Source: Gracilibacillus oryzae (GTDB lineage Bacteria; Bacillota; Bacilli; Bacillales; Amphibacillaceae). From it: DNA of 35,825 bases. The first letter of the stretch is position 1, and each line of letters starts with the position of its first letter. Position numbers and translations under genes: made by a program. Of this stretch, positions 280 through 35,825 are shown one piece after another. The stretch lies in contig NZ_ML762426.1 in NCBI RefSeq assembly GCF_009498735.1, forward strand, positions 163,030-198,854, written 5' to 3'. The notes below the pieces were generated by a model. It was not told the DNA's origin, did no database searches, and saw nothing but the letters and a program-made list of their open reading frames with translations.

Positions 280-487
280 AATGCCAAGAGAGAAGATAGG
301 AAGTTAGCTGAAGGTATTGGAAGGGCGTCTGAATGCCAAGAGAGAAGGTAGAAAGAGAGCTGAAGGCATTCGCAGGGCGTTTGAATGCCAAGAGAGAAGG
401 TAGAGAGTGAGCTGAAGGCATTAGAAAGGCATCTGAATGCCATGATGGATAGCAAAGAAAGAGCGGAAGGTATTGATAACAGTGTAA
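280..487. repeat. Tandem array 1, 52-bp period, 4 copies (last one decayed)
   Basis: The motif AATGCC recurs at 280, 332, 384 and 436, a constant 52-bp step. Each unit reads AATGCC, a purine-rich stretch with AGAGAGAAGG, then GGCATT (GGTATT in copies 1 and 4) and a short connector to the next AATGCC. GGCATT and the following AATGCC are inverted repeats 13 nt apart; between copies 2 and 3 the arms extend to GGCATTC/GAATGCC. The fourth copy keeps its register through GGTATT at 469-474 and then decays. The array fills most of the 408-bp gap between the regulator tail and the DUF1835 gene. Short open frames across it are repeat-derived. Because 52 is not divisible by 3, the array is unlikely to be coding. 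Confidence 0.9.
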
Positions 488-577
488 AATCGTTTATAAA
501 CTGGTTTGGCAGAAGAAATTCGAAAGGTAAAAAAACTTCATCAATACTAGCTCTTCATAAGTCATTATTATAGGAGG

Positions 578-1690
578 ATGATCCCAATCATAACGAAAAT
601 TAATACTCCATATATTTACTTTTTGTCAGAAGCTGACCTGGTTTTCGTCTATCCGTTTCATTTTACAGATTATATAACCTCTGCAGATTTAAGTGAAATA
701 GGAACTACTTATAAAATTAATGATAAGAATGAATTTCAGACCTTTGATCATCATGATTATGAGGAAAGTAAAGAAATGGGTTTCAGTTACTTTGTAAAAG
801 AAGAAACGCTAAATTACATGGTAGAAGAAATTAATAAGCAGATTCAAAAATATAAAAATCAGAAAGGAATAGACAACCAGTCTGATCCTGTTCATATAGT
901 CACATCAGAATCTGTTGCTGGTTCGCTAAAAGTAGCCTTGAAAAGACCAAAACATGTGATTGGTTTTCCTGATAGTTTTGCAATAGGACCTCTGTGGAAA
1001 TTAGAAACAAAGGAAGGTCAAACTTACCGGAGTAATTGGTTGCTTGATCATATTAACATGGAGGATGACGAATACCAGATTAAGTGGAACAATGCTCTGC
1101 GTGAGATAATAGATATTTCGGTTAATGTTCCGATTTATCTCTGGTATGGCAATAATGCGGACGAACAATCAGGATTGCGATTTTATCTTTATTTATTGAG
1201 AGACAAGACAAATCTAATCTATCTAATCAATACAACAGAACTCTATGAAAAATTCTATGCAAGCAAAGAAATTCAAGGTATCTGTAACAGTGGCCAACTA
1301 GAGCCAAACCAGTTAGCATTCATTTTTAATGAAACAGCACATGTTCCGCTGTCATTCGAACAGCGAAGTGATTTTCAGGAGCAATGGGAAAAGCTGGCGC
1401 AATCGCAAGATGTGTTGCGTATTTGGATAAATAATACTGTTCAGCCTTTGGAGGAAGAGCATTATGATTCTTTCATTCTGTCAACAATTGATAGGTTGCA
1501 TCAAAAGCAAAAGAAGCAAGATTTTATCCTTACTGCTGATGTGATTGGCGAATTATTGATCGAAATGGAGGAATATATTGATTACGCTTTTTTGGAATAT
1601 CGAATTCGTCACTTAATCTATAGTGGAATATTGGAGTTAAAAGGGGTGCCTAAAACGATGAGGCACTATAGTGTGAAACTCAGATCCTGA
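578..1690 (+). CDS. DUF1835 / DUF3658 domain protein
   Basis: A 370-residue soluble protein. From about residue 103 the sequence HIVTSESVAGSLK, then GFPDSFAIGPLW and SNWLLDHI, fits the DUF1835 family. The C-terminal part, which is predicted to contain a winged-helix-like segment (IDYAFLEYRIRHLIYSGILEL), fits the associated DUF3658. No function is established for these domains. The first ~100 residues form an extension beyond the usual DUF1835 start and I do not recognise them. The start is doubtful: AGGAGG at 572-577 directly touches the ATG at 578, which is too close for normal initiation, and no better ATG/GTG/TTG lies 5-9 nt downstream. It is the first gene of an apparent operon with the Nudix and methyltransferase genes. 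Confidence 0.75.
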   Translation: MIPIITKINTPYIYFLSEADLVFVYPFHFTDYITSADLSEIGTTYKINDKNEFQTFDHHDYEESKEMGFSYFVKEETLNYMVEEINKQIQKYKNQKGIDNQSDPVHIVTSESVAGSLKVALKRPKHVIGFPDSFAIGPLWKLETKEGQTYRSNWLLDHINMEDDEYQIKWNNALREIIDISVNVPIYLWYGNNADEQSGLRFYLYLLRDKTNLIYLINTTELYEKFYASKEIQGICNSGQLEPNQLAFIFNETAHVPLSFEQRSDFQEQWEKLAQSQDVLRIWINNTVQPLEEEHYDSFILSTIDRLHQKQKKQDFILTADVIGELLIEMEEYIDYAFLEYRIRHLIYSGILELKGVPKTMRHYSVKLRS

Positions 1691-1714
1691 CGATCTAGAA
1701 TGGGAGCGAGCAGT

Positions 1715-2335
1715 TTGGAAACAGAACAATTAAAAATTTTTGACGATAATCGAAAGGAAATAGGAATTGCTTCACGAAGCGATGTACATAAGTTTGGCTA
1801 CTGGCATGAAGTGTTTCATTGCTGGTTTGTCAGTACCGAGAATGAAGTAAATTATATTTACCTGCAATTGCGCAGTGCAAATAAGAAAGATTACCCTAAT
1901 CTCTATGATATAACAGCAGCGGGTCATCTTCTGGCAGATGAAACAGTCAAAGATGGGGTTCGGGAAATTGAAGAAGAACTGGGGATAAGTGTAGCTTATG
2001 ATGAATTATTTCCATTAGGGACGATCGATTATTGTGTCATAAGAAAAGATTTTATCGATAAAGAGATTGCGAATGTTTTTTTACATAAGTTTAATATGAA
2101 AATGGATGATTTTACTTTGCAAAAAGAAGAAGTGGCAGGTATGGTGAGAGCTGAATTTACTGATTTTGAGGCACTGTGGAATGGTGGGAAAGACACAATT
2201 GAAATTAGTGGATTTGTGCTGGATCAGGCAGGGGAAAAGGTGATTAAGGAAGATCGTATAGGGAGAGAGCATTTTGTACCACATCAGTCTTCGTTCTATC
2301 AAGCTGTTATTGGCAAGATAAAAGAAATTGTATAA
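1715..2335 (+). CDS. Nudix hydrolase
   Basis: About 206 residues. A Nudix fold is indicated by AAGHLLADETVKDGVREIEE followed by LGIS. This fits the Nudix box G-x5-E-x7-RE-x2-EE-x-G, with the catalytic Glu residues in REIEEELG. Such enzymes hydrolyse nucleoside diphosphates linked to another moiety; the substrate is not readable here. The N-terminal part (KIFDDNRKEIG, FGYWHEVFHCWFV) resembles YfcD/isopentenyl-diphosphate-isomerase-like Nudix proteins. I prefer the TTG at 1715 because GGGAG at 1702-1706 lies 8 nt upstream. The ATG at 1700 would add five residues but has no ribosome site. The gene follows the DUF1835 gene closely and precedes a methyltransferase. Confidence 0.8.
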   Translation: METEQLKIFDDNRKEIGIASRSDVHKFGYWHEVFHCWFVSTENEVNYIYLQLRSANKKDYPNLYDITAAGHLLADETVKDGVREIEEELGISVAYDELFPLGTIDYCVIRKDFIDKEIANVFLHKFNMKMDDFTLQKEEVAGMVRAEFTDFEALWNGGKDTIEISGFVLDQAGEKVIKEDRIGREHFVPHQSSFYQAVIGKIKEIV

Positions 2336-2346
2336 GGTGGTATTGT

Positions 2347-2907
2347 ATGCAAACTATTGATAATTTAAAAGTTGTCATTGGTGCCGGTGACCATAATAAC
2401 AATCCAACATGGCTTCAAACACAGGAAAGTGAGCTGAATCTGTTAAGGAAATCGGATTGGGAAAAAAACTTTTCTTCAAATACACTTCAAGCTATTGTAG
2501 CAGAACATGTCTGGGAACATTTAACCTATGAAGAAGGTGTGAGTGCTGCCGAGATATGTTACGAATTTTTGAGACCTGGAGGCTATGTTCGTTGTGCTGT
2601 CCCTGATGGCTATTTTCCAGATAAAGAATATCAAAATGTTATCAAAGTAGGGGGTCCTGGACCTGAAAATCACCCAGCTGCCAGTCATAAAATCGTACAT
2701 AATTACAAAACCCTTCGTTCGCTGTTTGAAAAAGCAGGGTTTATTGTTGATCTATTGGAATATTGTGATGAGAAGGGCAATTTTCACGAAAGTCAATGGG
2801 ATGAAAAAACAGGATTTATTTACCGTTCTAAACGTTTTGATCATCGGAATAAGAGTGGTAAATTAAAATTTGTTTCAGTTATAGTTGATGCTGTAAAACC
2901 AAGTTAA
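2347..2907 (+). CDS. Class I SAM-dependent methyltransferase
   Basis: A 186-residue protein of the type-11 methyltransferase group. AEHVWEHLTYEEG, then FLRPGGYVRCAVPDGYFPD, corresponds to strands 4 and 5 of the Rossmann fold. The N-terminal half (LKVVIGAGDHNNNPTWLQT) is a divergent motif I in place of the usual GxGxG. YKTLRSLFEKAGFIVDLLEY is the usual late methyltransferase helix and strand. The substrate is unknown. AAGGTGG lies 7 nt before the ATG. It is the last gene of the 578-2907 operon, 11 nt after the Nudix stop; a strong terminator follows at 2998. Confidence 0.8.
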   Translation: MQTIDNLKVVIGAGDHNNNPTWLQTQESELNLLRKSDWEKNFSSNTLQAIVAEHVWEHLTYEEGVSAAEICYEFLRPGGYVRCAVPDGYFPDKEYQNVIKVGGPGPENHPAASHKIVHNYKTLRSLFEKAGFIVDLLEYCDEKGNFHESQWDEKTGFIYRSKRFDHRNKSGKLKFVSVIVDAVKPS

Positions 2908-2997
2908 TGTGGTTCATCAAATAAGTGTGTACGGATGAATCACATATAAAGATGAAAGAAAATTCTAATTATATAAAAAGAGTCTTTCCATACGAAT

Positions 2998-3040
2998 AGC
3001 ATGTTTTGATAGCAGGTGCTGATCAGAACATGCTTTTTTT
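2998..3040 (+). terminator. Rho-independent terminator after methyltransferase
   Basis: The outer arms AGCATGTT and AACATGCT enclose an inner imperfect stem (TGATAGCA against TGCTGATCA), followed by a run of seven T. It separates the first operon from the sigma-factor operon. Confidence 0.88.
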
Positions 3041-3067
3041 ATATACAACAAAAGAATTCTCTAAAGT

Positions 3068-3095
3068 TGAAACTTTTCGTCACACCTCTTCGCTC
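3068..3095 (+). promoter_or_regulatory. Putative ECF-sigma autoregulatory promoter
   Basis: TGAAAC at 3068-3073 matches the -35 element of Bacillus ECF promoters. After a 17-nt spacer comes CGCTC at 3091, close to the usual CGTC/CGTA -10 element. It lies 50 bp before a sigma-factor gene of the same class, as expected for autoregulation. The -10 match is imperfect. Confidence 0.5.
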
Positions 3096-3121
3096 TAATT
3101 AAATGAAAGGAGGGTTACATT

Positions 3122-3664
3122 GTGAAACATGATATAAAGACAGTAAAAAAAGCCATTAACGGCGATAAGAGCGCTTTTGAAAAATTACTGATTCAAGAAG
3201 AAAAAATGCTCTACTACAAAGCGTTATCTTATGTTCGAACAAAAGAAGATGCATTGGATGTGATCCAGGAAACCGCATGTAAGGCTTTTTTAGCAATAAG
3301 CCAATTGAAGAATCCGGAATATTTTTCTACATGGCTTTTCAAAATTCTTATTCGGGAGTGCTACAGTCTGCTAAAAAGCCGGGATAGAATAATCCCATAT
3401 GAAGAAAATGAGCTGTTAAAGAAATTAGATCGTGAACAGGATGAGGAGATCGAATCGTTTCACCTGAGTGAGGCATTATCCAGACTACGGTCTTCTTATC
3501 AGACATGCCTGATTTTGTTTTACTATCATGACTTGTCAATTAAGGATATTGCTGAGGTGATGGAAAAGCCTTCTGGCACAATCAAAACCTATTTACGCAG
3601 AGCGAAGAAAACTTTAAAGAGCGAATTAGAAAGGAGTTACAAATTAAATGAAAAGACTTCATGA
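3122..3664 (+). CDS. ECF-type RNA polymerase sigma factor
   Basis: A 180-residue sigma-70 family protein. Region 2 lies at about residues 10-75 (EKMLYYKALSYVRTKEDALD, then VIQETACKAF and STWLFKILIREC). Region 4 lies at about 115-170 (LSEALSRLRSSYQTCLILFYY, then SIKDIAEVMEKPSGTIKTYL, the helix-turn-helix, and RRAKKTLK). The start is the GTG at 3122: AAAGGAGGG lies 7 nt upstream. The 3' end overlaps the next gene by 17 nt, so the two are probably translationally coupled. The pairing with a membrane DUF4179 protein is the common sigma/anti-sigma arrangement in Bacillaceae. Confidence 0.92.
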   Translation: MKHDIKTVKKAINGDKSAFEKLLIQEEKMLYYKALSYVRTKEDALDVIQETACKAFLAISQLKNPEYFSTWLFKILIRECYSLLKSRDRIIPYEENELLKKLDREQDEEIESFHLSEALSRLRSSYQTCLILFYYHDLSIKDIAEVMEKPSGTIKTYLRRAKKTLKSELERSYKLNEKTS

Positions 3665-4727
3665 TCAGATAGAAGAGTTTCCGAAAGAGGATGTTCGATC
3701 AGCGATTCATAGAGGGATTTCTCAGGCAGAAAAGCAAAGGAATGATGACATTATGCAACCAAAAATAAACAAAAAAAGAAGAAAGGTATTATACACATTA
3801 GGCAGTGTTGCAGCAGTATTTATGATATTGGTGGGTTCCTCCTATTATTCACCGGCATTAGCAAGCAGTTTGTCTCAAATACCGATTATTGGATCCGTTT
3901 TTGGGAACTCTGATTTAATAGGATTACAGCAGGCTCAAGAGAATGGCTTAACTAATAAGGTTGGGGAGACACAGACAGTTGATGGCATATCTGTAACGCT
4001 TGATGAGGTTTTATATACACCAAGCAAAATTACTGTCGGGCTCATTATTGAAACAGAAAAAGAACTTGAGGAACATTACTTTGGAGCTGGGATGGATATA
4101 ACAATAAACGGAAAACTTCCGAAGGGTTCATCAGGCAGCTATGGAGAAGAAATCCAGTCTGACACCGTAATTACTGCTATTCAGGAAATATCGGTATCAG
4201 AGGAAATGCCTGATGCCTTTGATCTTGGTTTAATTTTGCATGGGGAGAATGGAGAAAAATGGTACTTCACAACTCCTATCGAAAAAATTACCGATGTTCA
4301 GCAAATTCCGCTTGATCACAGCCAAACGGTTGATGGCGTTGAACTGACAGTAAAAGAGTTATCGTTAAGTGAAGCAGGTGGAAGTATATCATTTGAGAGT
4401 TTAGAAGATGGAACAGACTTTGCATTAAGCAAGGGAAAATATATTGAATTCAAGCTGGTTGATCAAAATGGCAATGAAATAACAAGTTATTCAGGAGGAG
4501 GATCAGGGGAAATCCGTGGGGACAAACTCTTCTATCAAAGCAGTAAAGATTTCGATCCAATTGACAATTCTGTAACTGAACTAACAATCACACCATATTT
4601 AGCTCTTCCAAGTGGTGGCGGCAGTGTGGAAATTGATGAAAATGGGGAATCAAGAGAGCTGGAATTGAATTTCGATGTTTTACAGCCTGTTGAATTTGAA
4701 TCAATTAAAGTGGAGATACCGCAATAA
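3648..4727 (+). CDS. DUF4179-domain membrane protein, probable anti-sigma factor
   Basis: A 359-residue protein with a short cytoplasmic N-terminus (about residues 1-45). One membrane segment follows at about 47-65 (VLYTLGSVAAVFMILVGSSY), then a long extracytoplasmic part. The juxtamembrane pattern SPALASSLSQIPIIGSVF followed by VGETQTVDGISVTLDEVLYT is the DUF4179 signature. The C-terminal part (QTVDGVELTVKEL onward) fits DUF5643. Proteins of this type are encoded next to ECF sigma genes and are thought to hold the sigma at the membrane until a surface signal arrives; that role is inferred from context. The ATG lies inside the sigma gene, and a strong terminator follows. Confidence 0.85.
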   Translation: MKRLHDQIEEFPKEDVRSAIHRGISQAEKQRNDDIMQPKINKKRRKVLYTLGSVAAVFMILVGSSYYSPALASSLSQIPIIGSVFGNSDLIGLQQAQENGLTNKVGETQTVDGISVTLDEVLYTPSKITVGLIIETEKELEEHYFGAGMDITINGKLPKGSSGSYGEEIQSDTVITAIQEISVSEEMPDAFDLGLILHGENGEKWYFTTPIEKITDVQQIPLDHSQTVDGVELTVKELSLSEAGGSISFESLEDGTDFALSKGKYIEFKLVDQNGNEITSYSGGGSGEIRGDKLFYQSSKDFDPIDNSVTELTITPYLALPSGGGSVEIDENGESRELELNFDVLQPVEFESIKVEIPQ

Positions 4728-4737
4728 ATAAGCTAAA

Positions 4738-4785
4738 AACTAAGGCTTTTGTCGGAAAAATTGGCAAAGAGCCTTAGTTTTTTAA
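4738..4785 (+). terminator. Rho-independent terminator after DUF4179 gene
   Basis: The arms AACTAAGGCT and AGCCTTAGTT form a perfect 10-bp stem, followed by six T. It ends the sigma/anti-sigma operon. Confidence 0.88.
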
Positions 4786-4795
4786 TTGAACTATG

Positions 4796-4920
4796 GTTTA
4801 AACATCAAAGAGTTCAAGGCTGAGCTCCAAATTGAAAAATAAAGGCAGTTTAAAGAGATCATAGAGCTCCAAACTGTTCTCTCAAAGATGAATAAATCCA
4901 GTTAACCATCAAACCAACTG
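4796..4920. repeat. Probable decayed 52-bp repeat array between convergent genes
   Basis: GTTTAAACATCAAAG at 4796-4810 and GTTAACCATCAAAC at 4901-4914 resemble the right half of the array at 25754 (GTTTAACTATCAAAAC). Their CATC cores lie 104 bp apart, exactly two 52-bp steps. A weaker middle copy reads CAGTTTAAAGAGATCATAG near 4846-4864. A shared GAGCTCCAAA occurs at 4822 and 4864. No intact hairpin arms remain. The stretch separates the convergent DUF4179 and pflA genes. Confidence 0.45.
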
Positions 4921-4925
4921 CCCTC

Positions 4926-5657
4926 TCATAGGCTGTTCAATATTCTCTCCGCATTTTCTATTCTGTCAGCTGTTGGCGGTTCGATGCCTTCTAGGGGATA
5001 AGGAATGCCGAGCTCCTCCCATTTATATATCCCGAGTTTATGATATGGCAAAACTTCAATTTTTTCCACATTGGATAGTTTTTTAATAAAAACAGCTAAT
5101 TGTTGTAGTGCCTGATCTTCATCACTAATGGTAGGCACCAGCACATGCCTTATCCAGACAGGCACTTGTCTTGTGTCCAAGTATCTTGCGAATTGTAAAA
5201 TATGCTGGTTGGTCATTCCTGTTAATGCTTGATGAGCTTCTTTGTCTATATGCTTCAAGTCAAGCAGGACAAGATCTGTTACCTGCATCAGCTTATCTAA
5301 TTTCTCTATATAGTAGGGAGAGGAAGAGAAACAGCCTCCACAACTGTCTAATGTTGTATGAATCCCGTTCTTTTTGAGTGTTGTAAACAATTCGATGAGA
5401 AAATCGATTTGCAATAGCGGTTCACCACCGCTCACCGTTACTCCTCCGCCAGAGGCCTGGAAGAAAGGCAAGTATGAAGAAATGTCGGTGAATAATTCTT
5501 CTGCCGTTACCTCTTTACCTTTACTCCTGTTCCAAGTATCGGGGTTATGGCAATACTTACATCTCAATAAACACCCCTGCATAAATATCACGTATCGTAA
5601 ACCTGGTCCATCGACGGTACCACATGTTTCGACAGAATGTATTCGGCCATTCATCAT
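4926..5657 (-). CDS. pflA: Pyruvate formate-lyase activating enzyme
   Basis: About 243 residues, a radical-SAM enzyme. The cluster motif C-x3-C-x2-C is seen in GCLLRCKYCHNPDTW near residue 30, preceded by GTVDGPGLRYVIFMQG. GGGVTVSGGEPLLQ is the GGE SAM-binding motif, and TTLDSCGG and LLDLKHID are also family features. It uses a [4Fe-4S] cluster and SAM to place the glycyl radical on PflB. AGAGGTG precedes the tandem ATGs at 5657 and 5654; a GTG at 5663 overlaps the ribosome site and is not preferred. It follows pflB by about 50 bp on the same strand, forming a pflB-pflA operon. Confidence 0.93.
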   Translation of the reverse strand: MMNGRIHSVETCGTVDGPGLRYVIFMQGCLLRCKYCHNPDTWNRSKGKEVTAEELFTDISSYLPFFQASGGGVTVSGGEPLLQIDFLIELFTTLKKNGIHTTLDSCGGCFSSSPYYIEKLDKLMQVTDLVLLDLKHIDKEAHQALTGMTNQHILQFARYLDTRQVPVWIRHVLVPTISDEDQALQQLAVFIKKLSNVEKIEVLPYHKLGIYKWEELGIPYPLEGIEPPTADRIENAERILNSL

Positions 5658-5704
5658 ACTCACCTCTTCTGTATTTTTATAATCGGTTGTCCACAGTCGC
5701 TTAG

Positions 5705-7966: not shown

Positions 7967-8050
7967 GAAATGTACCTCCTTAATAAGTTTGTTCAAGAGT
8001 GATCATTCTTATCTTCTCTTTTAGTATATCGCAATAGAACGAGGAAGTCA

Positions 8051-8207: not shown

Positions 8208-8213
8208 TAGAAA

Positions 8214-8466
8214 CAATACTTTTTAAAATCAGTGACAAAGAGAGTAGTTATTTGTATGGACAAAAGCGAGTCAAGGATGGTGAGAGCTTGACCAAATGAC
8301 AAATAATGAACCGCACTTTGTAGATGCTTTCCTGAATAGGAGTAGGGAAAGCCGGGGGAATCCTCGTTAAAAATGAGAGTGGTTTTGTGTAAAACAAGTA
8401 GAGTGGTACCGCGGGCGAAATGTAACCCCGTCTCTTTTCAGTTGGAAAAGAGGCGGGGTTTTTTAT
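8214..8466 (+). promoter_or_regulatory. T-box leader of argS (specifier CGC, Arg)
   Basis: The T-box proper is AGAGTGGTACCGCGG at 8400-8414. A terminator follows, with arms of the type AACCCCGTCTCTTTT and AAAAGAGGCGGGGTT and a T-run ending near 8466. Stem I is bounded by CAAAG (8236-8240) and CTTTG (8316-8320). Its specifier loop has AGTA on the 5' side and GAAC-CGC-A on the 3' side, with CGC at 8312-8314 an arginine codon. The distal GATGGTGAGAGC is a normal Stem I feature. Uncharged tRNA-Arg would stabilise the antiterminator and allow argS expression. Confidence 0.93.
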
Positions 8467-25718: not shown

Positions 25719-25753
25719 TTTTTTTGTGGGAAAGACCAGCGTTGAGGATAGGA

Positions 25754-26117
25754 TAAGATAAGAAAGGTCCTTTTAATCATCAAAACGGGAGAGGCACGTG
25801 GGAGATTTGATAGGAAAAGTCTGTTTAACTATCAAAACAGGAGAACCATGAGAGAGATTTGATAGGAAAAGCCTGTTTAACTATCAAAACTAGAGAACCA
25901 TGAGAGAGATTTGATAGGAAAAGCCTGTTTAACTATCAAAACAGGAGAACCATGAGAGAGATTTGATAGGAAAAGTCTGTTTAACTATCAAAACAGGAGA
26001 ACCATGAGAGAGATTTGATAGGAAAAGATCGTTTAATTATCAAAACTAGGGACACATGAGAGAGATTTAACAGAAAAGCTCATTTGATCGTCAAAATCAT
26101 AGTGCATGAAGGAGTTG
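25754..26117. repeat. Tandem array 2, 52-bp period, 7 copies
   Basis: Copies start at 25754, 25806, 25858, 25910, 25962, 26014 and 26066, a constant 52-bp step. The five middle copies are nearly identical; the first and last are diverged. Each unit holds the arms TTTGATAG and CTATCAAA separated by 15 nt (GAAAAGTCTGTTTAA), then a purine-rich linker containing GGAGAACC and ATGAGAGAGA. The last copy loses arm pairing and its linker carries AAGGAG, the ribosome site of the next gene. The array fills the 402-bp gap between the GNAT and P-loop kinase genes; I see no separate promoter after it. Confidence 0.95.
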
Positions 26118-27901: not shown

Positions 27902-27914
27902 GAAGGAGGGTTCG

Positions 27915-28160: not shown

Positions 28161-28191
28161 TTTATAGACAGAGTAAAGGGAGGGTGTGGAT

Positions 28192-29079: not shown

Positions 29080-29102
29080 AAATAAAAAGGAGGCGGCATG
29101 TT

Positions 29103-29294: not shown

Positions 29295-29307
29295 CAATTT
29301 TGATAGA

Positions 29308-29815
29308 TGTAAGTTGATTGAAATTCATCATGAATTCAAAACAGGAGCATTCCTGTCAAGTTATGCAGTCAAGAAGCAGTCATAACGTCAAAACAGAATA
29401 GCAAGTGGAGAGTTATGCAGTCAAGAAGCAGTCATACCATCAAAACCGAAGAGCAAGTGGAGAGTTATGCAGTCAAGAAACAGTCATAACATCAAAACCG
29501 AAGAACAAGTGGAGAGTTATGCAGTCAAGAAGCATTCATACCATCAAAACCGAAGAGCAAGTGGAGAGTTATGCAGTCAAGAAGCAGTCATAGCATCAAA
29601 ACCGAAGAGCAGGTGAAGAGTTATGCAGTCAAGAAGCAGTCATAGCATCAAAACCGAAGAGCAGGTGAAGAGTTATGCAGTCAAGAAGCATTCATACCAT
29701 CAAAACCGAAGAGCAAGTGGAAAGTTATGCAGTTAAGAAGCAGTCATACCATCAAAACCGAAGAGCAAGTGGAAAGTTATGCAGTCAAGAAGCAGTCATA
29801 CCATCAATTATTTGT
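29308..29815. repeat. Tandem array 3, 52-bp period, 9 good copies plus 1 degenerate
   Basis: GTTATGCAGTCAAGAA recurs at 29360, 29412, 29464, 29516, 29568, 29620, 29672, 29724 (one change) and 29776, always 52 bp apart. A diverged copy at 29308 precedes them. Each unit has GTTATG, 15 nt, CATAAC (CATACC or CATAGC in most copies), then ATCAAAACCGAAGAGC and a purine-rich linker (AAGTGGAGA). The ATCAAAAC block is shared with the array at 25754. An open frame of 62 codons across the array (29405-29593) is repeat-derived. The array and the metG T-box together fill the 865-bp gap from 29295 to 30159. Confidence 0.95.
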
Positions 29816-29831
29816 GAGTGAGAAATTAGAT

Positions 29832-29861
29832 GTTGACTTAAATTTAGCAAAATGCAATAAT
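29832..29861 (+). promoter_or_regulatory. Possible promoter of the metG leader
   Basis: TTGACT at 29832-29837 is a good -35. AATAAT at 29856-29861 is a fair -10 at 18 nt. It lies between the end of the repeat array and the T-box leader. Confidence 0.4.
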
Positions 29862-29869
29862 TAGTTAAT

Positions 29870-30137
29870 TCTATAACGTTAAACAAAAGCAATGATGGGA
29901 AGAGTGAAAGGAAGCATTGAATAGTTGATTGAATATGGTCTCAGAGCTTCACGGCTGAACTTTTGAAAGTAAGGCTGTGACGAGATTTGGCACTCGTTAT
30001 AAATGTCAGGGTATAAGAACATGAAAATGGTTCCGTACTTTTAGAGGCTGATTATGTGAGTAATTAGTGAAATAAGGTGGTAACACGGGTATAACCTCGT
30101 CCTTAGACAATTTTGTCTTTGGGCGGGGTTTTTTGTA
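29870..30137 (+). promoter_or_regulatory. T-box leader of metG (probable specifier AUG, Met)
   Basis: The T-box sequence AAGGTGGTAACACGG lies at 30074-30088; it is a variant of the more usual GGTACCGCG. A terminator follows, with arms CCTCGTCC and GGGCGGGG, inner pairing TAGAC/GTCTT and six T. GAAC-ATG-A at 30018-30025 matches the specifier context seen in the argS leader (GAAC-CGC-A) and gives the methionine codon AUG. Stem I base pairing is less clear than in the argS leader. Confidence 0.82.
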
Positions 30138-30159
30138 TTTAAATAAAGGAGGATTCTCA

Positions 30160-31800
30160 ATGAATGTATTAATTGGAGGAGCATGGCCATATGCCAATGG
30201 ATCGCTGCATTTAGGACACATAGCAAGTTTATTGCCAGGCGATATTTTGGCTCGATATTATCGTTTGAAAGGGGAGAATGTGCTGTATGTCTCAGGGAGT
30301 GATTGCAACGGGACACCCATTACAATCAGAGCAAGGCAAGAAGGGTGTACGGCTAAAGCAATTGCTGATCGATACCATCAGGAGTTTCGAGAGTGTTTTG
30401 AAAAGCTTGGTTTCACTTATGATTACTACACACGGACAGACTCAGAACATCATCATAAGATTGTTCAAAAGATCTTCTTAGAATTACTGGATAATAAAAA
30501 AGTCTATAAAAAAGAAATGGAGCAAGCTTTTTGTGGTACATGTGATCAATTTTTACCTGACCGATTCGTTGAGGGAAAATGTCCGAACTGTGGCAAAGAT
30601 GCAAGAGGTGATCAATGCGATCATTGTTCCAAAATATTAGATCCGCTGGAACTGCTGAAAAAGATATGTAAGCTATGTGGCGAATCCCCGACAACAAGAG
30701 CTACTGAACACTTTTATTTTCAATTAAGTGCATTTCAGGCTCAATTAGAATCATACGTCAGATCTGTCAGCGAAAAAGGATTATGGCGTGATAATGCGAT
30801 TAAGTTAACAGAACGATACTTAAAGGAGGGATTGCATGATCGTGCAGTTTCAAGAGATTTACCAATTGGGGTTCCTGTCCCTGTAAAGGGGTATGAGGAT
30901 AAGAAGATTTATGTCTGGATGGAAGCAGTTTCCGGTTATTATTCTGCCAGCAAAAAGTGGGCGGAAGAGAATAATGAAGATGATTCGGCTTTCTGGAGAG
31001 AGGATACAATGTCTTATTATATTCACGGGAAAGACAATATTCCATTTCATTCGATCATTTGGCCTTCCATTTTATTAGGGATAAATAATCATAGCCTACC
31101 TTCTCAGATTGTTTCAAATGAGTATTTAACTGTAGAGGGGCGAAAACTCTCCACAAGTAAAAATTGGGCCGTCTGGATTCCGGATTTAGTCGATCATTAT
31201 CACCCAGATTCCATTCGTTACTTTTTAACCATTAATGCTCCAGAGAATCGGGATACTGATTTTTCCTGGAGAGAATTTGTATACAGTCATAACAGCGAAT
31301 TATTAGGGGCATATGGTAATTTCGTTAACAGAACGTTGAAGTTTATTGAAAAATCATTTGCTGGTGTGATACCAAATGGCAAAATCGATGAGCAGATTGA
31401 GGTAAAAGTTAAGACACTGTATTCTGAGGCAGGGGTACTGATAGAAGAAGCACATTTTAAGCAAGCATTGGAAAAGTTATTCGAATTTGTGAGAAGTGCC
31501 AATAAATATTTTGATGTGAAACAACCATGGGTTCAAGTTAAGGAATCTCCTGAAGAATGTAAAGCTACTTTAGCGACATGTGTCTATATTATTGCAAATC
31601 TTGCTCAATTGTTAAGTCCATTCCTGCCTTTTTCAAGTGATTGTGTAAGAGAGTTTTTAGCCATACAAGAGTTAGAATGGGAGCCAATTGAGGTGAATTC
31701 AATAACAATAAATGATGTTCAGCCATTGTTTGAGAGACTGGATGTTTCTGTTATTGACTTGGAGGTTAGAAAGTTAAGAGAACAATCCAGCATCCAATAA
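30160..31800 (+). CDS. metG: Methionyl-tRNA synthetase, four-zinc-knuckle (second) type
   Basis: 546 residues, class I synthetase. The HIGH motif is [11 protein letters not shown] and the KMSKS-type loop is [13 protein letters not shown]. The insertion near residues 125-180 has four CxxC pairs: CGTC, CPNC, CDHC and CKLC. This is the type with two zinc sites, unlike the single-knuckle B. subtilis MetS. It also lacks the C-terminal tRNA-binding (EMAP-like) domain. Such a form, often called MetRS2, occurs as an accessory enzyme in some Gram-positives and can tolerate inhibitors of the standard enzyme. The ATG at 30160 has AAAGGAGG upstream; the ATG at 30133 precedes the ribosome site and is rejected. 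Confidence 0.94.
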
Positions 31801-31854
31801 CTTTACAATTTTAAACAGCTAGGAAATCATACCTGTCAATGAATTGAATTTATA

Positions 31855-31885
31855 TTGACTATAGAGTTAACTCCAATGTTATAGT
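31855..31885 (+). promoter_or_regulatory. MerR-type promoter and operator
   Basis: TTGACT at 31855-31860 and TATAGT at 31880-31885 are spaced 19 nt, the over-long spacer typical of MerR-controlled promoters. The perfect palindrome GAGTTAACTC (31864-31873) sits in the spacer. It lies 19 nt before the merR-type gene, implying autoregulation. Confidence 0.72.
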
Positions 31886-31903
31886 TGCTTTGAGGTGAGG
31901 AAA

Positions 31904-32332
31904 ATGCAAATAAAAGATTTTGCAAAGGAATATCACATCCAGACAGATACGATCCGATATTATGAGAAAGAAGGCTTATTGAAACCTTCAAGAAAAGAGA
32001 ATGGATATCGTCACTATGATGAGAACTGTGAAAAACAGATTCAGTTTATTATTGCATTAAAACAAATAGGATTCACATTAAAAGAAATTAAGCAGCTGCT
32101 CATAATGGAAAGTAAACCAATCTCCATGGAATGTAATGTTTTAACAGTAGACTTTCTTGATCAGAAATTAGAGGAACTTGAGCAGAAAATTCAGTTTTAC
32201 CAGCAAGCAGTCAAAACACTGCAGCAAGTTAAAGACATGATAAATGATGGAAAATTTGAAGAAAATAAAGGACAGGTAGAGCATATGATGCTGCAGCTAT
32301 TTGAAAAAAGCCTGGAGAGGAATAAAACATGA
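31904..32332 (+). CDS. MerR-family transcription regulator
   Basis: 142 residues. The winged helix-turn-helix MQIKDFAKEYHIQTDTIRYY is followed by EKEGLLKPSRKENGYRHYD and FIIALKQIGFTLKEIKQLL. A long coiled-coil dimer helix is then seen (FLDQKLEELEQKIQFYQQAV). No pair of metal-binding cysteines is seen in the tail, which argues for a small-molecule or stress sensor of the NmlR/AdhR-like kind over a metal sensor. I take the ATG at 31904; GAGGTG lies 6 nt upstream. The stop overlaps the DUF4260 start (ATGA), so that gene is the likely target together with merR itself. Confidence 0.9.
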   Translation: MQIKDFAKEYHIQTDTIRYYEKEGLLKPSRKENGYRHYDENCEKQIQFIIALKQIGFTLKEIKQLLIMESKPISMECNVLTVDFLDQKLEELEQKIQFYQQAVKTLQQVKDMINDGKFEENKGQVEHMMLQLFEKSLERNKT

Positions 32333-32679
32333 AGGCTCAGTACTTGATACGATTGGAAAATGGATTAGCATTCGCAGCTTGTTTCTTTTTATACGTGAAC
32401 CTGAATTTTTCGATATGGGTTTTCTTCCTTTTTTTACTGGTTCCTGATCTTAGCATGCTAGGTTATTTATTCAATCATAAAGCAGGCGCAATTATCTATA
32501 ATTTGGGGCACAGCTTTATTATCCCTATTTTTATTGGGTTCAGTTATTGGTATTTTTCAAAAGATTATTTATTAATGATCTCCTTAATCTGGCTTGCTCA
32601 TATATTTATGGATCGACTCTTTGGGTTTGGTTTGAAATATAACCACTCTTTCAAAATCACGCATATACAAAAAATATAA
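32329..32679 (+). CDS. DUF4260 family membrane protein
   Basis: 116 residues with about four membrane segments: LAFAACFFLYVNLNFSIWVF; FLLVPDLSMLGYLF; IIYNLGHSFIIPIFIGFSYW; LLMISLIWLAHIFMDRL. The motifs VPDLSMLGY, YNLGHS and FGFGLKYNHSFKITH are typical of DUF4260. The function is unknown. It overlaps the merR gene by 4 nt, so it is likely induced by the same ligand. In the C-terminus the usual THLG reads THIQ. Confidence 0.88.
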   Translation: MKAQYLIRLENGLAFAACFFLYVNLNFSIWVFFLFLLVPDLSMLGYLFNHKAGAIIYNLGHSFIIPIFIGFSYWYFSKDYLLMISLIWLAHIFMDRLFGFGLKYNHSFKITHIQKI

Positions 32680-32715
32680 CCAAGGAAAGAGAAAAAACGA
32701 CTCTTTCCTTGGTAC
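32679..32715. terminator. Bidirectional terminator between DUF4260 and methyltransferase genes
   Basis: ACCAAGGAAAGAG and CTCTTTCCTTGGT form a perfect 13-bp stem around AAAAAACGA. T-rich tracts lie on both sides (a run of six T in CTTATTTTTTAC on the plus side, and A-rich AAAAAATATA on the other). Confidence 0.85.
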
Positions 32716-33522
32716 TTATTTTTTACATCCACTAACAGCTAATAAATACATCTCCATTGACTCAGCAGAGGTATTGATCCAGTCTCGATATTCTTCAACG
32801 GCACCAGCTCGTTCTGTTTCTGTGATATAACCGTCAGCAACTAATTGATGTCCTCTCGAATCAGCAACTTCCGCCCAAATAGAAACTCTCTGCTTGAAAT
32901 CATGATCACTTTTCGTTACTGTTTCATGCTGGACTGACGTTTCTATATTTGTCAGTCCGTTTGCTGAAAACATGTCAGCTAAATGATCAGCAATACGATT
33001 ATCCATCCCGGCATCAGACCTCCATTTGAGAAATGCCTTGTAGAAATACTGCATGCTTTCGGGCGGATCAGGACTCCATTTAATTTTTTCATGATTATAA
33101 TCAAGAACTACGATACAGCCATCTGTTTTTGTTGCCTGGATCAATTTATTAAGCGCTTTTTCAGGAGAGGTAAGCCATTGTAAGACTCTTGAAGCAGTGA
33201 CGACGTCGAATTGATTGTGATAATCAAGCTGATAAATATCTTTTGCGGCAAATGATAGATTGCTAAGTTCAGCATGTTTTTTGGCTGCTGAATCAATAAA
33301 TTGTTTATTCTCATCAATACCGACAACTTCTCCTGGTGCAACTGTTTGAGTAATATCTGCTGTAATCGCACCAGTTCCACAGCCGATATCAAGAACACTT
33401 ATCCCTGTTTGCAAAAAGTCTGTTAATCGTTGATGAGAGCGCTGCAGTGATCGACGTCCAATAATGGATGTTGTCCCTTCAGGCATCTGGGCACGATTAC
33501 GAGCGATTTTTTCATTTTGCAT
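32716..33522 (-). CDS. Class I SAM-dependent methyltransferase under T-box control
   Basis: 268 residues. SVLDIGCGTGAITADI is motif I. VVGIDENKQFIDSA, FDVVTASRVLQWLTSPEKAL and GCIVVLDYNHEKIKW complete the Rossmann fold. The C-terminal part (YFYKAFLKWRSDAGMDNRIA, then DWINTSAESMEMYLLAVSG) is close to the arrangement in small-molecule methyltransferases of the UbiE/trans-aconitate group. The substrate is unknown. AAGGTGG lies 9 nt before the ATG. A strong promoter and a T-box leader precede it, which is unusual for a methyltransferase and suggests that its substrate or product is linked to an amino acid. Confidence 0.87.
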   Translation of the reverse strand: MQNEKIARNRAQMPEGTTSIIGRRSLQRSHQRLTDFLQTGISVLDIGCGTGAITADITQTVAPGEVVGIDENKQFIDSAAKKHAELSNLSFAAKDIYQLDYHNQFDVVTASRVLQWLTSPEKALNKLIQATKTDGCIVVLDYNHEKIKWSPDPPESMQYFYKAFLKWRSDAGMDNRIADHLADMFSANGLTNIETSVQHETVTKSDHDFKQRVSIWAEVADSRGHQLVADGYITETERAGAVEEYRDWINTSAESMEMYLLAVSGCKK

Positions 33523-33552
33523 ATTAATGCACCACCTTATTAATTTTATAAA

Positions 33553-33800
33553 TAGAAAAAGCCCCGTCTCTAAAAATATCTAGAGACGAGACTCTGCTCG
33601 CGGTACCACTCTAATTAGTTATCATGGATAACTCACTTTTTGTTATAACGGAAGAAATCCGAAAGCCCTTACTTTCTTTTCAGGGAGTTGCTCCTGGACG
33701 AGTTCAAAAGAGATAACTGCCGATTTTCACCACCCATCAGCTCTCTAAAAGATTATCTGCCTTTTACTATTTCCAATCTTTGCATTATTAGTATTTAATT
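33553..33800 (-). promoter_or_regulatory. T-box leader of the methyltransferase (apparent specifier UCG)
   Basis: Read on the minus strand. The T-box AGAGTGGTACCGCGAGC covers 33596-33612. A terminator follows with arms CTCGTCTCT and AGAGACGGG, then five T. Stem I has AGTA on the 5' side of the specifier loop, a stem AGATAA/TTATCT above it, and GAAC-TCG-T on the 3' side. By analogy with the argS (GAAC-CGC) and metG (GAAC-ATG) leaders in this window, the specifier is UCG, serine. If the register were one base earlier it would be CUC, leucine. Confidence 0.88.
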
Positions 33801-33807
33801 ATAAAAT

Positions 33808-33836
33808 AGCATATAGGAATGGAAATCAGTTGTCAA
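33808..33836 (-). promoter_or_regulatory. Sigma-A promoter of the T-box methyltransferase unit
   Basis: On the minus strand TTGACA (33831-33836), a 17-nt spacer and TATGCT (33808-33813). The -35 is perfect. Transcription would start near 33800. Confidence 0.8.
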
Positions 33837-34010
33837 CGGTAATTTTTCGAATTATCTGATTATTTTATGAGGTATGGCAGAGCGATTTTGGAAAAAGTGT
33901 AAATGGGATTGGGATATTATGCTATTATGAAATGGTAATACTTGTTTGTAGAAGGACAGATTGACTGAGAATTACATAATGACTATGACACGCTGAAAAA
34001 ATGTACATAG

Positions 34011-34154
34011 CACATCCCTGGTGGCTCAGGAGTATGGTATGAAGGGTATCCGTTAGAACAATATGCAACTTGCGAAAATGATGATGACTTACTTCTTTTT
34101 TTGATAAAAAGACATGTTGGGAGAGAGAATAATGGAATTACATATCACAAATGA
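34011..34154 (+). pseudogene. Possible remnant of a gene tail
   Basis: An open frame without start codon reads IPGGSGVWYEGYPLEQYATC, then ENDDDLLLFLIKRHVGRE, which looks protein-like in composition. A TAG at 34008-34010 lies just before it, and the same frame upstream reads HNDYDTLKKCT back to another stop. It runs into the start of the GNAT gene in a different frame. It may be the decayed end of a lost gene or chance. The rest of 33837-34131 shows nothing I can support. Confidence 0.25.
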
Positions 34155-34557
34155 ACTGGATAAAAAAGCCAAGGATTATGTTAATGATGGGCTCTATCAA
34201 TTTAATAGGAAGCATTTTCCTGACGATTTAGGAGGCAGGTACGAAGATATTGGCTTGTTTATCAAGGATGAGAATGGTCTTGTTCATGGTGGATTAATAG
34301 CAGCAGTTTGCTGGAACTGGCTTGAGATCTATCAATTATATTTGGATGAAAAGATCAGGAAACAAGGCTATGGAACGAAATTATTAGAAAAGATTGAAAG
34401 AATTGCCATAGAGAAAGATTGCGATTTTATCAAGCTGGATACTTTGAGTTTCCAAGCATTAGACTTTTATAAAAAACATGGATATGAAGTGTTTGGCAGC
34501 ATTGATAACGTTGGAAGAGAGCATCAGCATTATTATTTGAAGAAGGATTTGAAATAA
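34132..34557 (+). CDS. GNAT-family acetyltransferase
   Basis: 141 residues. LEIYQLYLDEKIRKQGYGTK holds the CoA-binding motif (RKQGYG); DFIKLDTLSFQALDFYKKHG is the closing GNAT motif. The start ELHITNELDKKAKDYVNDGL, then QFNRKHFPDDLG, is like small Bacillus GNAT proteins. The substrate is unknown. GGGAGAGAG lies 4-8 nt before the ATG at 34132; the ATG at 34114 lacks such a site. It is the first of three tightly spaced genes. Confidence 0.87.
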   Translation: MELHITNELDKKAKDYVNDGLYQFNRKHFPDDLGGRYEDIGLFIKDENGLVHGGLIAAVCWNWLEIYQLYLDEKIRKQGYGTKLLEKIERIAIEKDCDFIKLDTLSFQALDFYKKHGYEVFGSIDNVGREHQHYYLKKDLK

Positions 34558-34558
34558 A

Positions 34559-35158
34559 ATGGAGATTCTGCTGATAAGACATGGAGAATCAGAAGCTGAT
34601 ATTTTAAAAGTTCATGAGGGGAGGGCGGATTTTTCTTTAACAGATTTAGGAAATAAGCAAGCACAGGTAATGGCTGACAGAATATATGAAGAATTCCCGC
34701 TGGATGTGATATGGTCAAGCACGTTAAAAAGAGCAAGGGAAACAACCTCTTATCTAAGTAAACTCATGGATTGTGAAGTCCATTATGAAGATAATTTGAT
34801 GGAACATAATAATGGATTATTTGCTGGAGTTGCTTTTGATAAAGCTGATCATCTAGCTATGCCACAACATTTACATGACCGATTTCCAGAGGGTGAATCA
34901 TACATAGAATTCAGAATGAGAATTGAGATAATATTTTCCAAAATTATTACTGCATCCACCAATATGAAAAGAATTGCAATTGTTGCACATGGTGGAGTGA
35001 TTAGTAACATACTTCAAGCTTTTCTGAAAAATCCAGTAGCTAAAGACTATTGGTTCAAAACAGGGGATACGGGAATCCATCTGGTTGAAATAAAAGAGAA
35101 TGAAAGAGTGATTCATTTTCTGAATGATACGAACCATCTAAAATCGATTGGGGAATAA
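34559..35158 (+). CDS. Histidine phosphatase family protein
   Basis: 199 residues. LLIRHGESEAD is the RHG motif with the phosphorylated His at about residue 8. LTDLGNKQAQVMADRI and SSTLKRARETTSYL supply the second Arg. RIAIVAHGGVISNIL contains the second catalytic His. These are features of the phosphoglycerate-mutase-like broad-specificity phosphatases. The true substrate is unknown. The ATG lies 1 nt after the GNAT stop, with GAAGGA about 13 nt upstream. The Nudix gene starts 5 nt after its stop. Confidence 0.9.
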   Translation: MEILLIRHGESEADILKVHEGRADFSLTDLGNKQAQVMADRIYEEFPLDVIWSSTLKRARETTSYLSKLMDCEVHYEDNLMEHNNGLFAGVAFDKADHLAMPQHLHDRFPEGESYIEFRMRIEIIFSKIITASTNMKRIAIVAHGGVISNILQAFLKNPVAKDYWFKTGDTGIHLVEIKENERVIHFLNDTNHLKSIGE

Positions 35159-35163
35159 ACAAA

Positions 35164-35586
35164 ATGAAAAGAGTAGATGTCGCGTATGTAATGTTATTTG
35201 ATGAGCGAGATGAAAAGATATTGATGGTGAAAAATAAAGGCAAAAATGGTTCATATTTTACTTTGCCTGGTGGTGCGGTAGAAGATGGTGAGACATTAGG
35301 AGAAGCAGCTGTAAGGGAAGTGAAGGAAGAAACTGGCCTCGAGATAGAAGTTGGTAATCTGCTTACAGTAAGTGAGGCTTTCTTTGTGGGGAGGGGGCAT
35401 CATGCGATATTATTTACATTTATCGGCTCTATAACTGGTGGTGCTGTCGAGATTATTTATCCAGATGAAATTGAGCAGGTTACATGGATGAAAGTTGAAG
35501 AGGCGGAAAGATATTTAGATATTTCAATAGAGAATATAAAAGAAATGACAACTGTGCCATATATAATGAGAGGTATTGTAAATTAA
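35164..35586 (+). CDS. Nudix hydrolase
   Basis: 140 residues. The Nudix box GGAVEDGETLGEAAVREVKE, then ETGLEI, is complete (G-x5-E-x7-RE-x2-EE-x-G). The start VAYVMLFDERDEKILMVKNK and the tail EIIYPDEIEQVTWMKVEEAE fit small MutT/ADP-ribose-pyrophosphatase-like enzymes. The substrate cannot be told. It is the last gene of the GNAT-phosphatase-Nudix group, which has the look of a small house-cleaning operon. Confidence 0.92.
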   Translation: MKRVDVAYVMLFDERDEKILMVKNKGKNGSYFTLPGGAVEDGETLGEAAVREVKEETGLEIEVGNLLTVSEAFFVGRGHHAILFTFIGSITGGAVEIIYPDEIEQVTWMKVEEAERYLDISIENIKEMTTVPYIMRGIVN

Positions 35587-35628
35587 AACGTCTCAGCAAT
35601 GGACGATCCATAAAAGGGGCGTCTTTTT
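35584..35628 (+). terminator. Probable terminator after the Nudix gene
   Basis: ACGTCTC and GGGGCGT pair with G-U wobbles, an inner hairpin ATGGA/TCCAT lies between them, and five T follow. Confidence 0.6.
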
Positions 35629-35655
35629 CACTTATGGGGGAATGGATAGAAAAGA

Positions 35656-35825
35656 TGAGATAGTTAGAATTAGTTTACCTATCATAACTCCTCAATGGCA
35701 GTGCAGATATGATAGTTAGAAGCGTTTATCCTATCAAAAGTTATACAAGGCAGTGCAGATATGATAGTTAGAAGCGTTTATCCTATCAAAAGTTATACAA
35801 GGCAGTGCAGATATGATAGTTAGAA
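35656..35825. repeat. Tandem array 4, 52-bp period, runs off the window
   Basis: Copies start at 35656 (diverged), 35708, 35760 and 35812 (cut by the edge), again 52 bp apart; the two full central copies appear identical. Each unit has TGATAG, 15 nt (TTAGAAGCGTTTATC), CTATCA, then AAAGTTATACAAGG and GCAGTGCAGA. The arms are the same core as in the array at 25754, while the loop and linker differ. Confidence 0.93.

Follow-up and report, generated by a model that had tools for sequence, protein, structure and literature searches.

We found that the window, a stretch of 35,825 nucleotides from the chromosome of Gracilibacillus oryzae, contains four intergenic tandem arrays built of 52-bp units (Table 1). 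The period is exactly 52 in all four, as the earlier note on this DNA had stated: TRF calls a period of 52 for each. When the window was compared with itself at lags of 40-69 (windows of 52 bp, identity of at least 62%), the four arrays came up at lag 52 and otherwise one weak match at lag 45 (63%). Array D runs past the end of the window (contig position 198854), with a further unit at C3:198995-199021. Array B is flanked by co-directional genes, and the units at both of its edges are degenerate; in array C, the opening line of the unit listing is degenerate and B-like. Two T-boxes were the only matches that exceeded the gathering score in an Rfam 15 scan of the window, and neither lies at an array.

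Table 1. Arrays of 52-bp units in the window, with an example dyad (positions within the window)
Feature	Position	Strand	Units	Half-sites	Purine-rich strand	TRF call
Array A	280..487	+	~4 of 52 bp	A-type, GGCATTC / GAATGCC	+	280-442 and 280-474
Array B	25752..26117	+	~7 of 52 bp	B-type, TTTGATAGG / CCTATCAAA (TGATAG-N15-CTATCA)		25757-26068, period 52
Array C	29300..29807	+	~9 of 52 bp	C-type, asymmetric (GTTATGCAGT... / ...CATACCATCAAAAC)		29359-29807, period 52
Array D	35656..35825	+	at least 3 of 52 bp	B-type sequence		35659-35825, period 52
Example dyad, inside one 52-bp unit of array B	25912..25938	.		TGATAG + 15 bp + CTATCA		

Other claims of that note needed correction. It had described four different array sequences, but arrays B and D share TGATAG/CTATCA and are one sequence type, so the window holds three arm types. 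The arms that it gave for array C, GTTATG/CATAAC, are perfect in two of the nine units, whereas the remaining units have CATACC or CATAGC. Its assignment of the purine-rich strand to the plus strand holds across the window, although genome-wide this strand follows the leading strand rather than the gene. Within the genome from which the window comes (G000), the A, B and C types have 53, 26 and 18 matches, respectively. Coding repeats were rejected: arrays B, C and D have several stops in all six frames, and 52 is not a multiple of 3. One minus frame of array A is open for about 80 codons, and in some arrays outside the window ORFs reach about 200 codons, most of them read from the pyrimidine-rich strand; we take these ORFs for chance.

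Each unit consists of two conserved half-sites of about 15 bp in dyad symmetry, a 5-bp centre and a 17-bp linker, with half-site centres about 20 bp apart within a unit and 32 bp apart across to the following unit. Between arrays, arm identity was 0.83 for the B type (16 arrays) and 0.74 for the A type (17 arrays); outside the arms, the same arrays gave 0.37 for the centre and 0.32-0.31 for the linker. Variation within arrays was 0.12 in the arms compared with 0.26-0.27 in the centre and linker (38 arrays). Among 346 unit intervals, 289 measured 52 bp, 50 measured 51, 4 measured 53 and 3 measured 103-104, and in 317 adjacent in-register unit pairs from 63 arrays there were linker substitutions at 1297 of 5389 sites against 23 spacing changes; unit detection for these counts required an ungapped match of 25/35, so an indel within the dyad would appear as a missing unit, and three intervals of at least 60 bp were seen. 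The spacers are free in sequence and nearly fixed in length, and the half-sites are conserved. Successive copies would lie on one face of the helix, as five turns per 52 bp and spacings of 51-53 suggest. Predicted intrinsic curvature, computed with wedge parameters, gave no special signal at 10.4 bp (mean z 0.68) and was larger at 9.4-9.8. Site-specific recombination would leave arrays that begin and end at the dyad centre, but the evidence for such boundaries was unconvincing: in 57 arrays (11 of the 68 were excluded beforehand) the first arm was a right arm in 33 and the last a left arm in 30. An in-register switch from B to E type at L080 was likewise discarded, as the 61.5 bp between the dyads does not bear it out.

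Palindrome excess over column-permuted units reached p<0.05 in 53 of 68 arrays (array D of the window, p=0.066). The dyad is weaker in congeners, with 48 of 56 own arrays and 5 of 12 congener arrays passing. The earlier note had proposed selection on a hairpin or palindrome, and the conserved half-sites, free spacers and near-fixed lengths support this for palindrome-like arms in a unit of fixed length. The covariation that it saw in the arms stood in part. Covariation is present between types, with matching arm pairs in 62.9% of cells compared with 50.7% (s.d. 1.5, maximum 55.4) when partners were dealt among arrays, and 19-29% when pairs were slid by 1-3 bp. This comparison covers 45 of 68 arrays, since congener arrays and those with poor or odd-parity centres were excluded, and it is biased towards covariation because the centre of every array was picked for best pairing. 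Few independent compensating events lie behind it, because 28 and 16 of the 45 arrays fall into two main clusters. On the gene-sense strand of 25 sense-oriented arrays, G·T and A·C mismatches were equally frequent (52 each); therefore, the constraint looks like one that acts on DNA, not RNA. These 25 arrays comprise 22 of 23 with co-directional neighbours (L098:1976 was left out) and three oriented by a single visible neighbour (window 280, window 35659 and L099). Folding of the sense and antisense RNA of the same arrays, with up to eight units per array, showed no significant difference (p=0.22). The lack of G·U tolerance on the sense strand and of a significant folding difference between strands, together with the conserved half-sites and the free spacers of near-fixed length, support the note's suggestion of an element that binds protein or organises DNA, and speak against an RNA.

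Dozens of such arrays occur in G000; they belong to several sequence types and range from 2 to 20 units. Many different periods elsewhere in the genome would have spoken against a shared layout, according to the earlier note. A period of 52 proved dominant when G000 was sampled at round-number positions: in 39 stretches (780 kb), 8 of 13 arrays with a period of at least 40 had a period of 52, one of 51, one of 50 and three had others (20/40, 21/42/63 and 159); the second batch of stretches was picked once some array positions were known, but not by those. Position-chosen stretches of the congener G015 gave a period of 52 in 7 of 8 arrays, and two further congeners have a period of 51. Congeners retain the unit length, and their sequences are largely different. 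The system may be dispensable, since 180 kb of G002 yielded zero arrays with a period near 52.

We mapped arrays in two complete genomes, G015 and G011. The purine-rich strand was the leading strand at 51 of 52 loci and 36 of 38 loci, respectively, and array orientation flips at dnaA, the origin. A flip at the terminus was rejected, as the positions of dnaA and dif place it at the origin; apart from one local exception, the GC skew of sampled stretches changes sign at the places expected from dnaA and dif. The dif-proximal 20% of each arm held none of the 52 loci and none of the 38 (types T3 and T1 only), and no locus lay beyond 0.78 (G015) or 0.74 (G011) of the ori-dif arm. For these polarity tables, BLAST hits closer than 800 bp were merged, the D and T1 types, whose queries are pyrimidine-rich, were counted on the opposite strand, and B-type strand calls are unreliable because the B type is nearly palindromic (exceptions on C7, C14 and C17). 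In G000, the orientation of A-, C- and D-type arrays agreed with the sign of the GC skew, arrays masked, on 17 of 19 contigs, including 11 of 11 with at least 9 kb of non-array sequence, and on 17 of 18 without masking. The masked test also took in C35; the two contigs that disagree in it are C28 and C38, each on under 3.5 kb. The G000 dif contig C2 (505 kb) had zero matches to types A-D; about 354 kb from dif, it carries an A-like remnant of 2.3 copies with a period of 50. Other large G000 contigs likewise lack A-D matches, including C6 (223 kb), which carries dnaA; thus, array-free DNA in G000 is not only around dif.

Arrays followed replication direction even where both flanking genes oppose it (L069, L094, L109, L257 and L258, by simple ORF calls); binomial values in this flanking-gene analysis assume 75% gene co-orientation and independent loci, both of which are rough. 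With co-directional flanks, the purine-rich strand is usually the coding strand. For 46 G000 arrays, simple ORF calls gave a gene on each side; counted by hand, these neighbours were convergent at 22, co-directional at 23 and divergent at one. The strongest facts are invisible from the window alone, and so to the earlier single-window reading: polarity with replication, exclusion from the terminus, and a unit length that congeners share although their sequences are largely different.

In the two complete genomes, array orientation tracks replication and reverses at the origin, and the surroundings of dif are array-free; from this we infer that the arrays act as polar landmarks. We give only slightly less than an even chance to the proposal that they present phased half-sites for protein binding and serve as polar chromosome landmarks excluded from the terminus. 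A dimeric or oligomeric DNA-binding protein, or several of them, would occupy the half-sites cooperatively from one side of the helix. The 2-20 units of an array could then nucleate a large nucleoprotein complex, and such complexes may mark the non-terminus part of the chromosome in a polar fashion. Their role might be in segregation or nucleoid occlusion, akin to that of the ter-depleted Noc and SlmA sites. Several points count against this model. One sequence-specific protein can hardly explain several arm types in one genome, and biased insertion or orientation-dependent stability could also yield polarity and terminus avoidance. The weaker dyad in congeners, the unexceptional curvature at 10.4 bp, the dnaA contig and other large G000 contigs without A-D matches, the A-like remnant on the dif contig and the result for G002 point the same way, and to our knowledge Noc and SlmA sites are not polar.

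Passages of two sources describe Noc sites (NBS, B. subtilis) and SlmA sites (SBS, E. coli) as underrepresented in the terminus (PMC4726725, PMC4331003); as described there, these are likewise tens of palindromic sites chromosome-wide, and their depletion around the terminus recurs here in G015 and G011 (types T3 and T1 only). The Noc site is given in such a passage as a 14-bp palindrome (PMC4726725), whereas the dyad here is 15-5-15. Unlike NBS and SBS, the arrays are tandem, with a near-fixed 52-bp unit, several sequence types and replication polarity. KOPS/SRS-type skewed motifs are likewise oriented with replication and flip at ori, but these are 8-bp single motifs enriched near dif, whereas the 52-bp arrays are absent there.

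The main rival to the landmark reading is a selfish, replication-oriented satellite without host function, which we consider rather unlikely. Such a satellite would spread or amplify through the single-stranded lagging-strand template, which Y1/HUH transposases use, or through hairpin-driven slippage; only one orientation would be made or stable, and the terminus would be avoided through lower copy number or counter-selection. The polarity with replication, arms that could fold in single strands, species-specific types and degenerate array edges all fit, as does a Y1 transposase gene of G000, RAYT-like in our reading, which lies 0.3 kb from an E-type array of 2.8 copies. However, mobility alone leaves the constant length of a sequence-free linker unexplained, and the absence beside dif looks steeper than a copy-number gradient, whereas the terminus is usually the richer region in mobile DNA. 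A search for Y1_Tnp found none in the array-bearing G011 and G004, and the sole G015 match is 166 aa and scores, in our reading, like an IS200-type gene. A RAYT-driven REP family was rejected on the G011 and G004 result, the one RAYT-like gene in G000 notwithstanding.

The arrays resemble REP and BIME-2 elements in being extragenic palindromic units, arrayed, mostly 3' of genes and of species-specific types. A passage of PMC3733652 gives REPs as palindromes of 20-40 nt, one end of which carries a conserved tetranucleotide, GTAG or CGTC; by contrast, the dyads here are about 35 bp and have no constant GTAG/CGTC at the foot (consensus list, by eye). BIMEs alternate REP orientation, whereas these units run head to tail, in register and at a constant 52-bp spacing, and the arrays are polar and ter-excluded. 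Intergenic VNTRs or minisatellites of the MIRU type are also tandem, variable in copy number and homogenised within arrays, but here one unit length occurs in most arrays, with conserved half-sites, free spacers and chromosome-scale polarity. CRISPRs have identical repeats and unique spacers, whereas this linker repeats with the unit within an array. A search for the tandem pattern in other bacteria matched 22 stretches (mostly Lachnospiraceae, span 65-77 bp); those inspected were paired promoter operators and unrelated.

It is improbable that the arrays are topological elements like E. coli BIME-2, at which bound gyrase would remove the positive supercoils that transcription and replication generate. 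BIMEs are described, in a passage of PMC2817692, as arrayed palindromic units that bind gyrase, and palindromic arrays at 3' ends and between convergent genes, such as the 22 of 46 in G000, would suit this role; however, it does not predict the polarity, the fixed 52-bp period or the absence around dif, and three REP/BIME-defining features are lacking. Transcribed RNA hairpin arrays, acting as 3' UTR stabilisers, terminators or protein sponges, would explain the hairpin-forming units at 3' ends and the purine-rich coding strand beside co-directional genes, but are very improbable given the equal sense-strand mismatches, a sense stability not significantly above antisense, the lack of an Rfam match at the window arrays and the adherence to replication where gene direction conflicts.

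We know of no bacterial genomes with dozens of dispersed tandem arrays that share a unit length across differing sequences and species, and none appeared among the matches listed in the open-licence full-text literature. The arrays look like a new kind of chromosome landmark. Their polarity and the array-free terminus domain make a chromosome-organising role testable with standard tools, and they offer a route to how a cell could flag its terminus region as available for division, as well as a bacterial system for studying concerted evolution and fast co-evolution of DNA sites and their binders. A wider reading, which we hold tentatively and rate as somewhat unlikely, is that this is bacterial satellite DNA with a job: a genus-level, five-turn nucleoprotein array that would signal the direction and extent of the chromosome arm, in which half-sites turn over fast between species while length, dyad, leading-strand orientation and terminus exclusion would persist. 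If true, protein and DNA would co-evolve rapidly in this landmark system, in a style of evolution like that of centromeric satellites.

The 52-bp arrays belong to a repeat system that is nearly fixed in length, conserved in its half-sites, DNA-level, polar with respect to replication and changing in sequence between species. A tandem repeat finder gave a period of 52 bp for each of the four intergenic arrays in the window, as an earlier note had read from the sequence, and a scan at lags 40–69 detected nothing else comparable, with a single weak match at lag 45. The note had taken the four to differ in sequence; there are three types, A, B and C, arrays 2 and 4 both being type B. BLAST searches of the source genome (G000; 4.63 Mb, 53 contigs) returned 53, 26 and 18 matches for A, B and C, of which one array may give several, and 26 for a further type, D; types E and F were met while reading the loci. 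From these loci we gathered 56 arrays with periods of 51–53 bp, duplicates removed, putting aside three of 59 that had other periods. One E-type array (2.8 copies, 51 bp) lies about 0.3 kb from a single Y1 transposase gene, putatively RAYT-like by reading, and enters a putative Rpn-like open reading frame.

Because arrays retrieved with a 52-bp array query are biased, we sampled genomes by position. The earlier note had held that many different periods genome-wide would make the shared layout a coincidence; instead, across 39 stretches of 20 kb in the source genome (780 kb, not counting the targeted stretch L235), 8 of the 13 arrays with a period of at least 40 bp had a period of 52. One other was 51 and one, adjoining a run of N, was 50; the remaining three had periods of 20/40, 21/42/63 and 159. 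Among congeners, 18 stretches of G015 (360 kb) held seven arrays of period 52 and one of 42, and 14 stretches of G011 (280 kb) had two of period 52, plus one whose period of 54 is a 27-bp repeat doubled. Four stretches of G004 contained one array (period 51, 19.6 copies), three of G005 two arrays, both of period 51, and four of G014 arrays of periods 125 and 40. No array near 52 was found in nine stretches of G002 (180 kb), and no period of 50–54 in 19 stretches (377.5 kb), one from each of 19 other genera of the family. Loci of G015 and G011 fetched by array similarity had period 52 in 30 of 30 cases, as expected from their mode of selection. A second tandem family, with a period of 20–21 bp (appearing as 40, 42 or 63), has, by eye, roughly GCNACTTTC in common between species; its period is likewise near whole helical turns. 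A 159-bp element is directly duplicated at each of two sites in the source genome.

Features and their locations
Feature	Location	Strand	Detail
Array 1	window		type A; half-sites GGCATTC...GAATGCC
Arrays 2 and 4	window		common type B; TTTGATAGG, 13 bp, CCTATCAAA
Array 3	window		type C; GTTATGCAGT...CATCAAAAC
T-box leader	window 8223-8438	+	Rfam RF00230
T-box leader	window 33579-33789	-	Rfam RF00230
20–21 bp family	L128:19450-19571		G000
20–21 bp family	L246:3807-4115		G000
20–21 bp family	L161:13132-13251		G015
20–21 bp family	L184:12843-13035		G014
159-bp element	L009:584-908		G000
159-bp element	L247:5599-5891		G000
Y1 transposase gene	C24:14556		G000; L205/L235
dnaA	2,940,708		G015
dif, best match	530,032		G015; 2 mismatches
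dnaA	1,157,715		G011
dif, best match	3,452,225		G011
Polarity exception	1405807		G015
Polarity exception	1297598		G011
Polarity exception	2173471		G011

Each unit consists of two half-sites (arms) of about 15 bp in dyad, a 5-bp centre and a 17-bp linker. Compared with column-permuted units (60 permutations each; p<0.05), the best dyad per unit was superior in 53 of the 68 arrays, made up of 48 of 56 from the source genome and 5 of 12 from congeners. The period is therefore kept more widely than the palindrome noted earlier. Between arrays, arm conservation was 0.83 (16 B arrays) and 0.74 (17 A arrays), and the rest was near random (centre 0.37; linker 0.32 and 0.31). Variation within arrays was less than half as great in arms (0.12) as in centre (0.26) and linker (0.27; 38 arrays). 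Adjacent units (317 in-register pairs, 63 arrays) differed at 1297/5389 linker sites (24%), 336/1585 centre sites (21%) and 841/9510 arm sites (9%), and on 23 occasions the spacing deviated from that characteristic of the array. Unit intervals were 52 bp in 289 cases, 51 in 50, 53 in 4 and 103–104 in three. A cooperative DNA-binding array would be expected to show just this: conserved half-sites separated by a spacer that is free in sequence but nearly constant in length.

Where sequence types meet, they keep a common register, except at L080 (B then E). At L068, C-type units give way to B-type ones and, from 1550 to 1966, each dyad centre follows the last at 52 bp. C and B dyads at L013 are 105 bp apart across two units, and A and F dyads in the two arrays at L098 are about 153 and 156.5 bp apart across three; the spacing therefore holds within about 1 bp per unit across type boundaries. 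By eye, a boundary unit at L098 looks like an A/F hybrid. In a dyad-centred alignment of 45 arrays from the source genome, offset 12 was G·C-paired in 43 and offset 3 A·T-paired in 40, and at offsets 6–11 A·T and G·C were exchanged on both sides. The arm covariation proposed earlier is seen in these paired exchanges, but since most of the arrays fall into two main clusters, of 28 and 16, it reflects compensation in a small number of independent events. A two-unit B pattern had 79 matches in the source genome, none in 104 other relatives and, in 16 congeners, one match at three mismatches that we take for chance. Type T3 is common to G015 (44 matches) and G011 (30) and had no match in the source genome, and type D gave two weak matches outside it, in G008. 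Arm sequences therefore turn over between species, though not at every split.

A transcript hairpin under selection would be expected to tolerate G·U pairs, and not A·C, on the sense strand. In 25 gene-oriented arrays, G·T and A·C mismatches each filled 52 cells of the majority-paired columns, beside 1575 Watson–Crick cells and 198 of other kinds, and the sense strand folded more stably in 15 of 25 arrays, with no significant sense/antisense difference (Wilcoxon p=0.22). The equal G·T and A·C counts and similar folding favour a dyad acting at the DNA level. This agrees with the protein-binding or DNA-organising element suggested earlier. Intrinsic curvature was nothing special at 10.4 bp. Separately, TGATAG-N15-CTATCA operators occur in pairs at loci L027–L049 (mostly Lachnospiraceae), many of them surrounding a TTGACA −35 box; in nine of the ten loci read, these lie upstream of a conserved gene of about 125 aa that is possibly autoregulated.

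In the complete genomes G015 and G011, dnaA and the best dif match lie half a chromosome apart, and the GC skew of the fetched stretches flips sign in the intervals holding them, with a single local exception near 2.1 Mb in G011. Merged T3 and T1 matches, the types searched, gave 52 and 38 loci, and the purine-rich strand was the leading strand in 51/52 and 36/38, respectively. Arrays of these types are absent around dif in both genomes: counts per tenth of the ori–dif arm were 2 6 5 10 8 13 5 3 0 0 (G015) and 7 1 4 4 11 6 4 1 0 0 (G011), and an empty outer fifth under uniform spread has probabilities of 9e-6 and 2e-4. For arrays near 52 of any type, five G015 stretches (100 kb) within about 0.51 Mb of dif held none and the other 13 (260 kb) held seven, a difference that is weak taken alone. 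Thirteen places on G015 contig C1 carry an identical 28-bp dif-like sequence with 3 mismatches to dif; these look like a repeat and may belong to a dispersed mobile element.

In the draft source genome, once the arrays were masked, A/C/D orientation matched the sign of contig GC skew in 17 of the 19 contigs, among them every one of the 11 in which other sequence amounted to 9 kb or more. Contig C2 (505 kb), which carries dif, gave no match to types A–D; close to where it begins, some 354 kb away from dif, lies an A-like remnant of 2.3 copies. Other large contigs without A–D matches were C6, which has dnaA, C9, C10, C11 and C12. Gene neighbours of the 56 arrays were convergent in 22 cases, co-directional in 23 and divergent in 1, with one neighbour uncalled in 10. 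By simple open reading frame calls, arrays at L069, L094 and L109 (source genome) and L257 and L258 (congeners) follow replication against both neighbouring genes, so the polarity does not seem to be borrowed from transcription.

One possible explanation is that the arrays are a selfish satellite, which may be amplified via lagging-strand DNA. We propose instead that a dimeric or oligomeric protein would bind cooperatively to the half-sites, with a phasing of five turns. As regards terminus depletion, the closest functional counterparts are Noc and SlmA sites, described as depleted at the terminus (PMC4726725, PMC4331003). Structurally, REP/BIME elements (PMC3733652, PMC2817692) are nearest, although the arrays depart from them in tag, transposase and alternating orientation. 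Triplex motifs have a reported origin-half bias in E. coli K-12, which the same authors did not see in other strains (PMC4666352). Among the matches listed, nothing in the open-licence full-text literature dealt with intergenic 52-bp arrays of Bacillales or with tandem arrays that are polar and terminus-excluded. Placing the arrays in a new category rests on these literature results and on their failure to fit REP/BIME, CRISPR, Noc sites or, for the arrays in the window, Rfam families; a specialist who filed them among minisatellites would have an extreme variant. Under the proposed protein binding, the arrays would mark the whole chromosome outside the terminus domain, serving segregation or the control of division.
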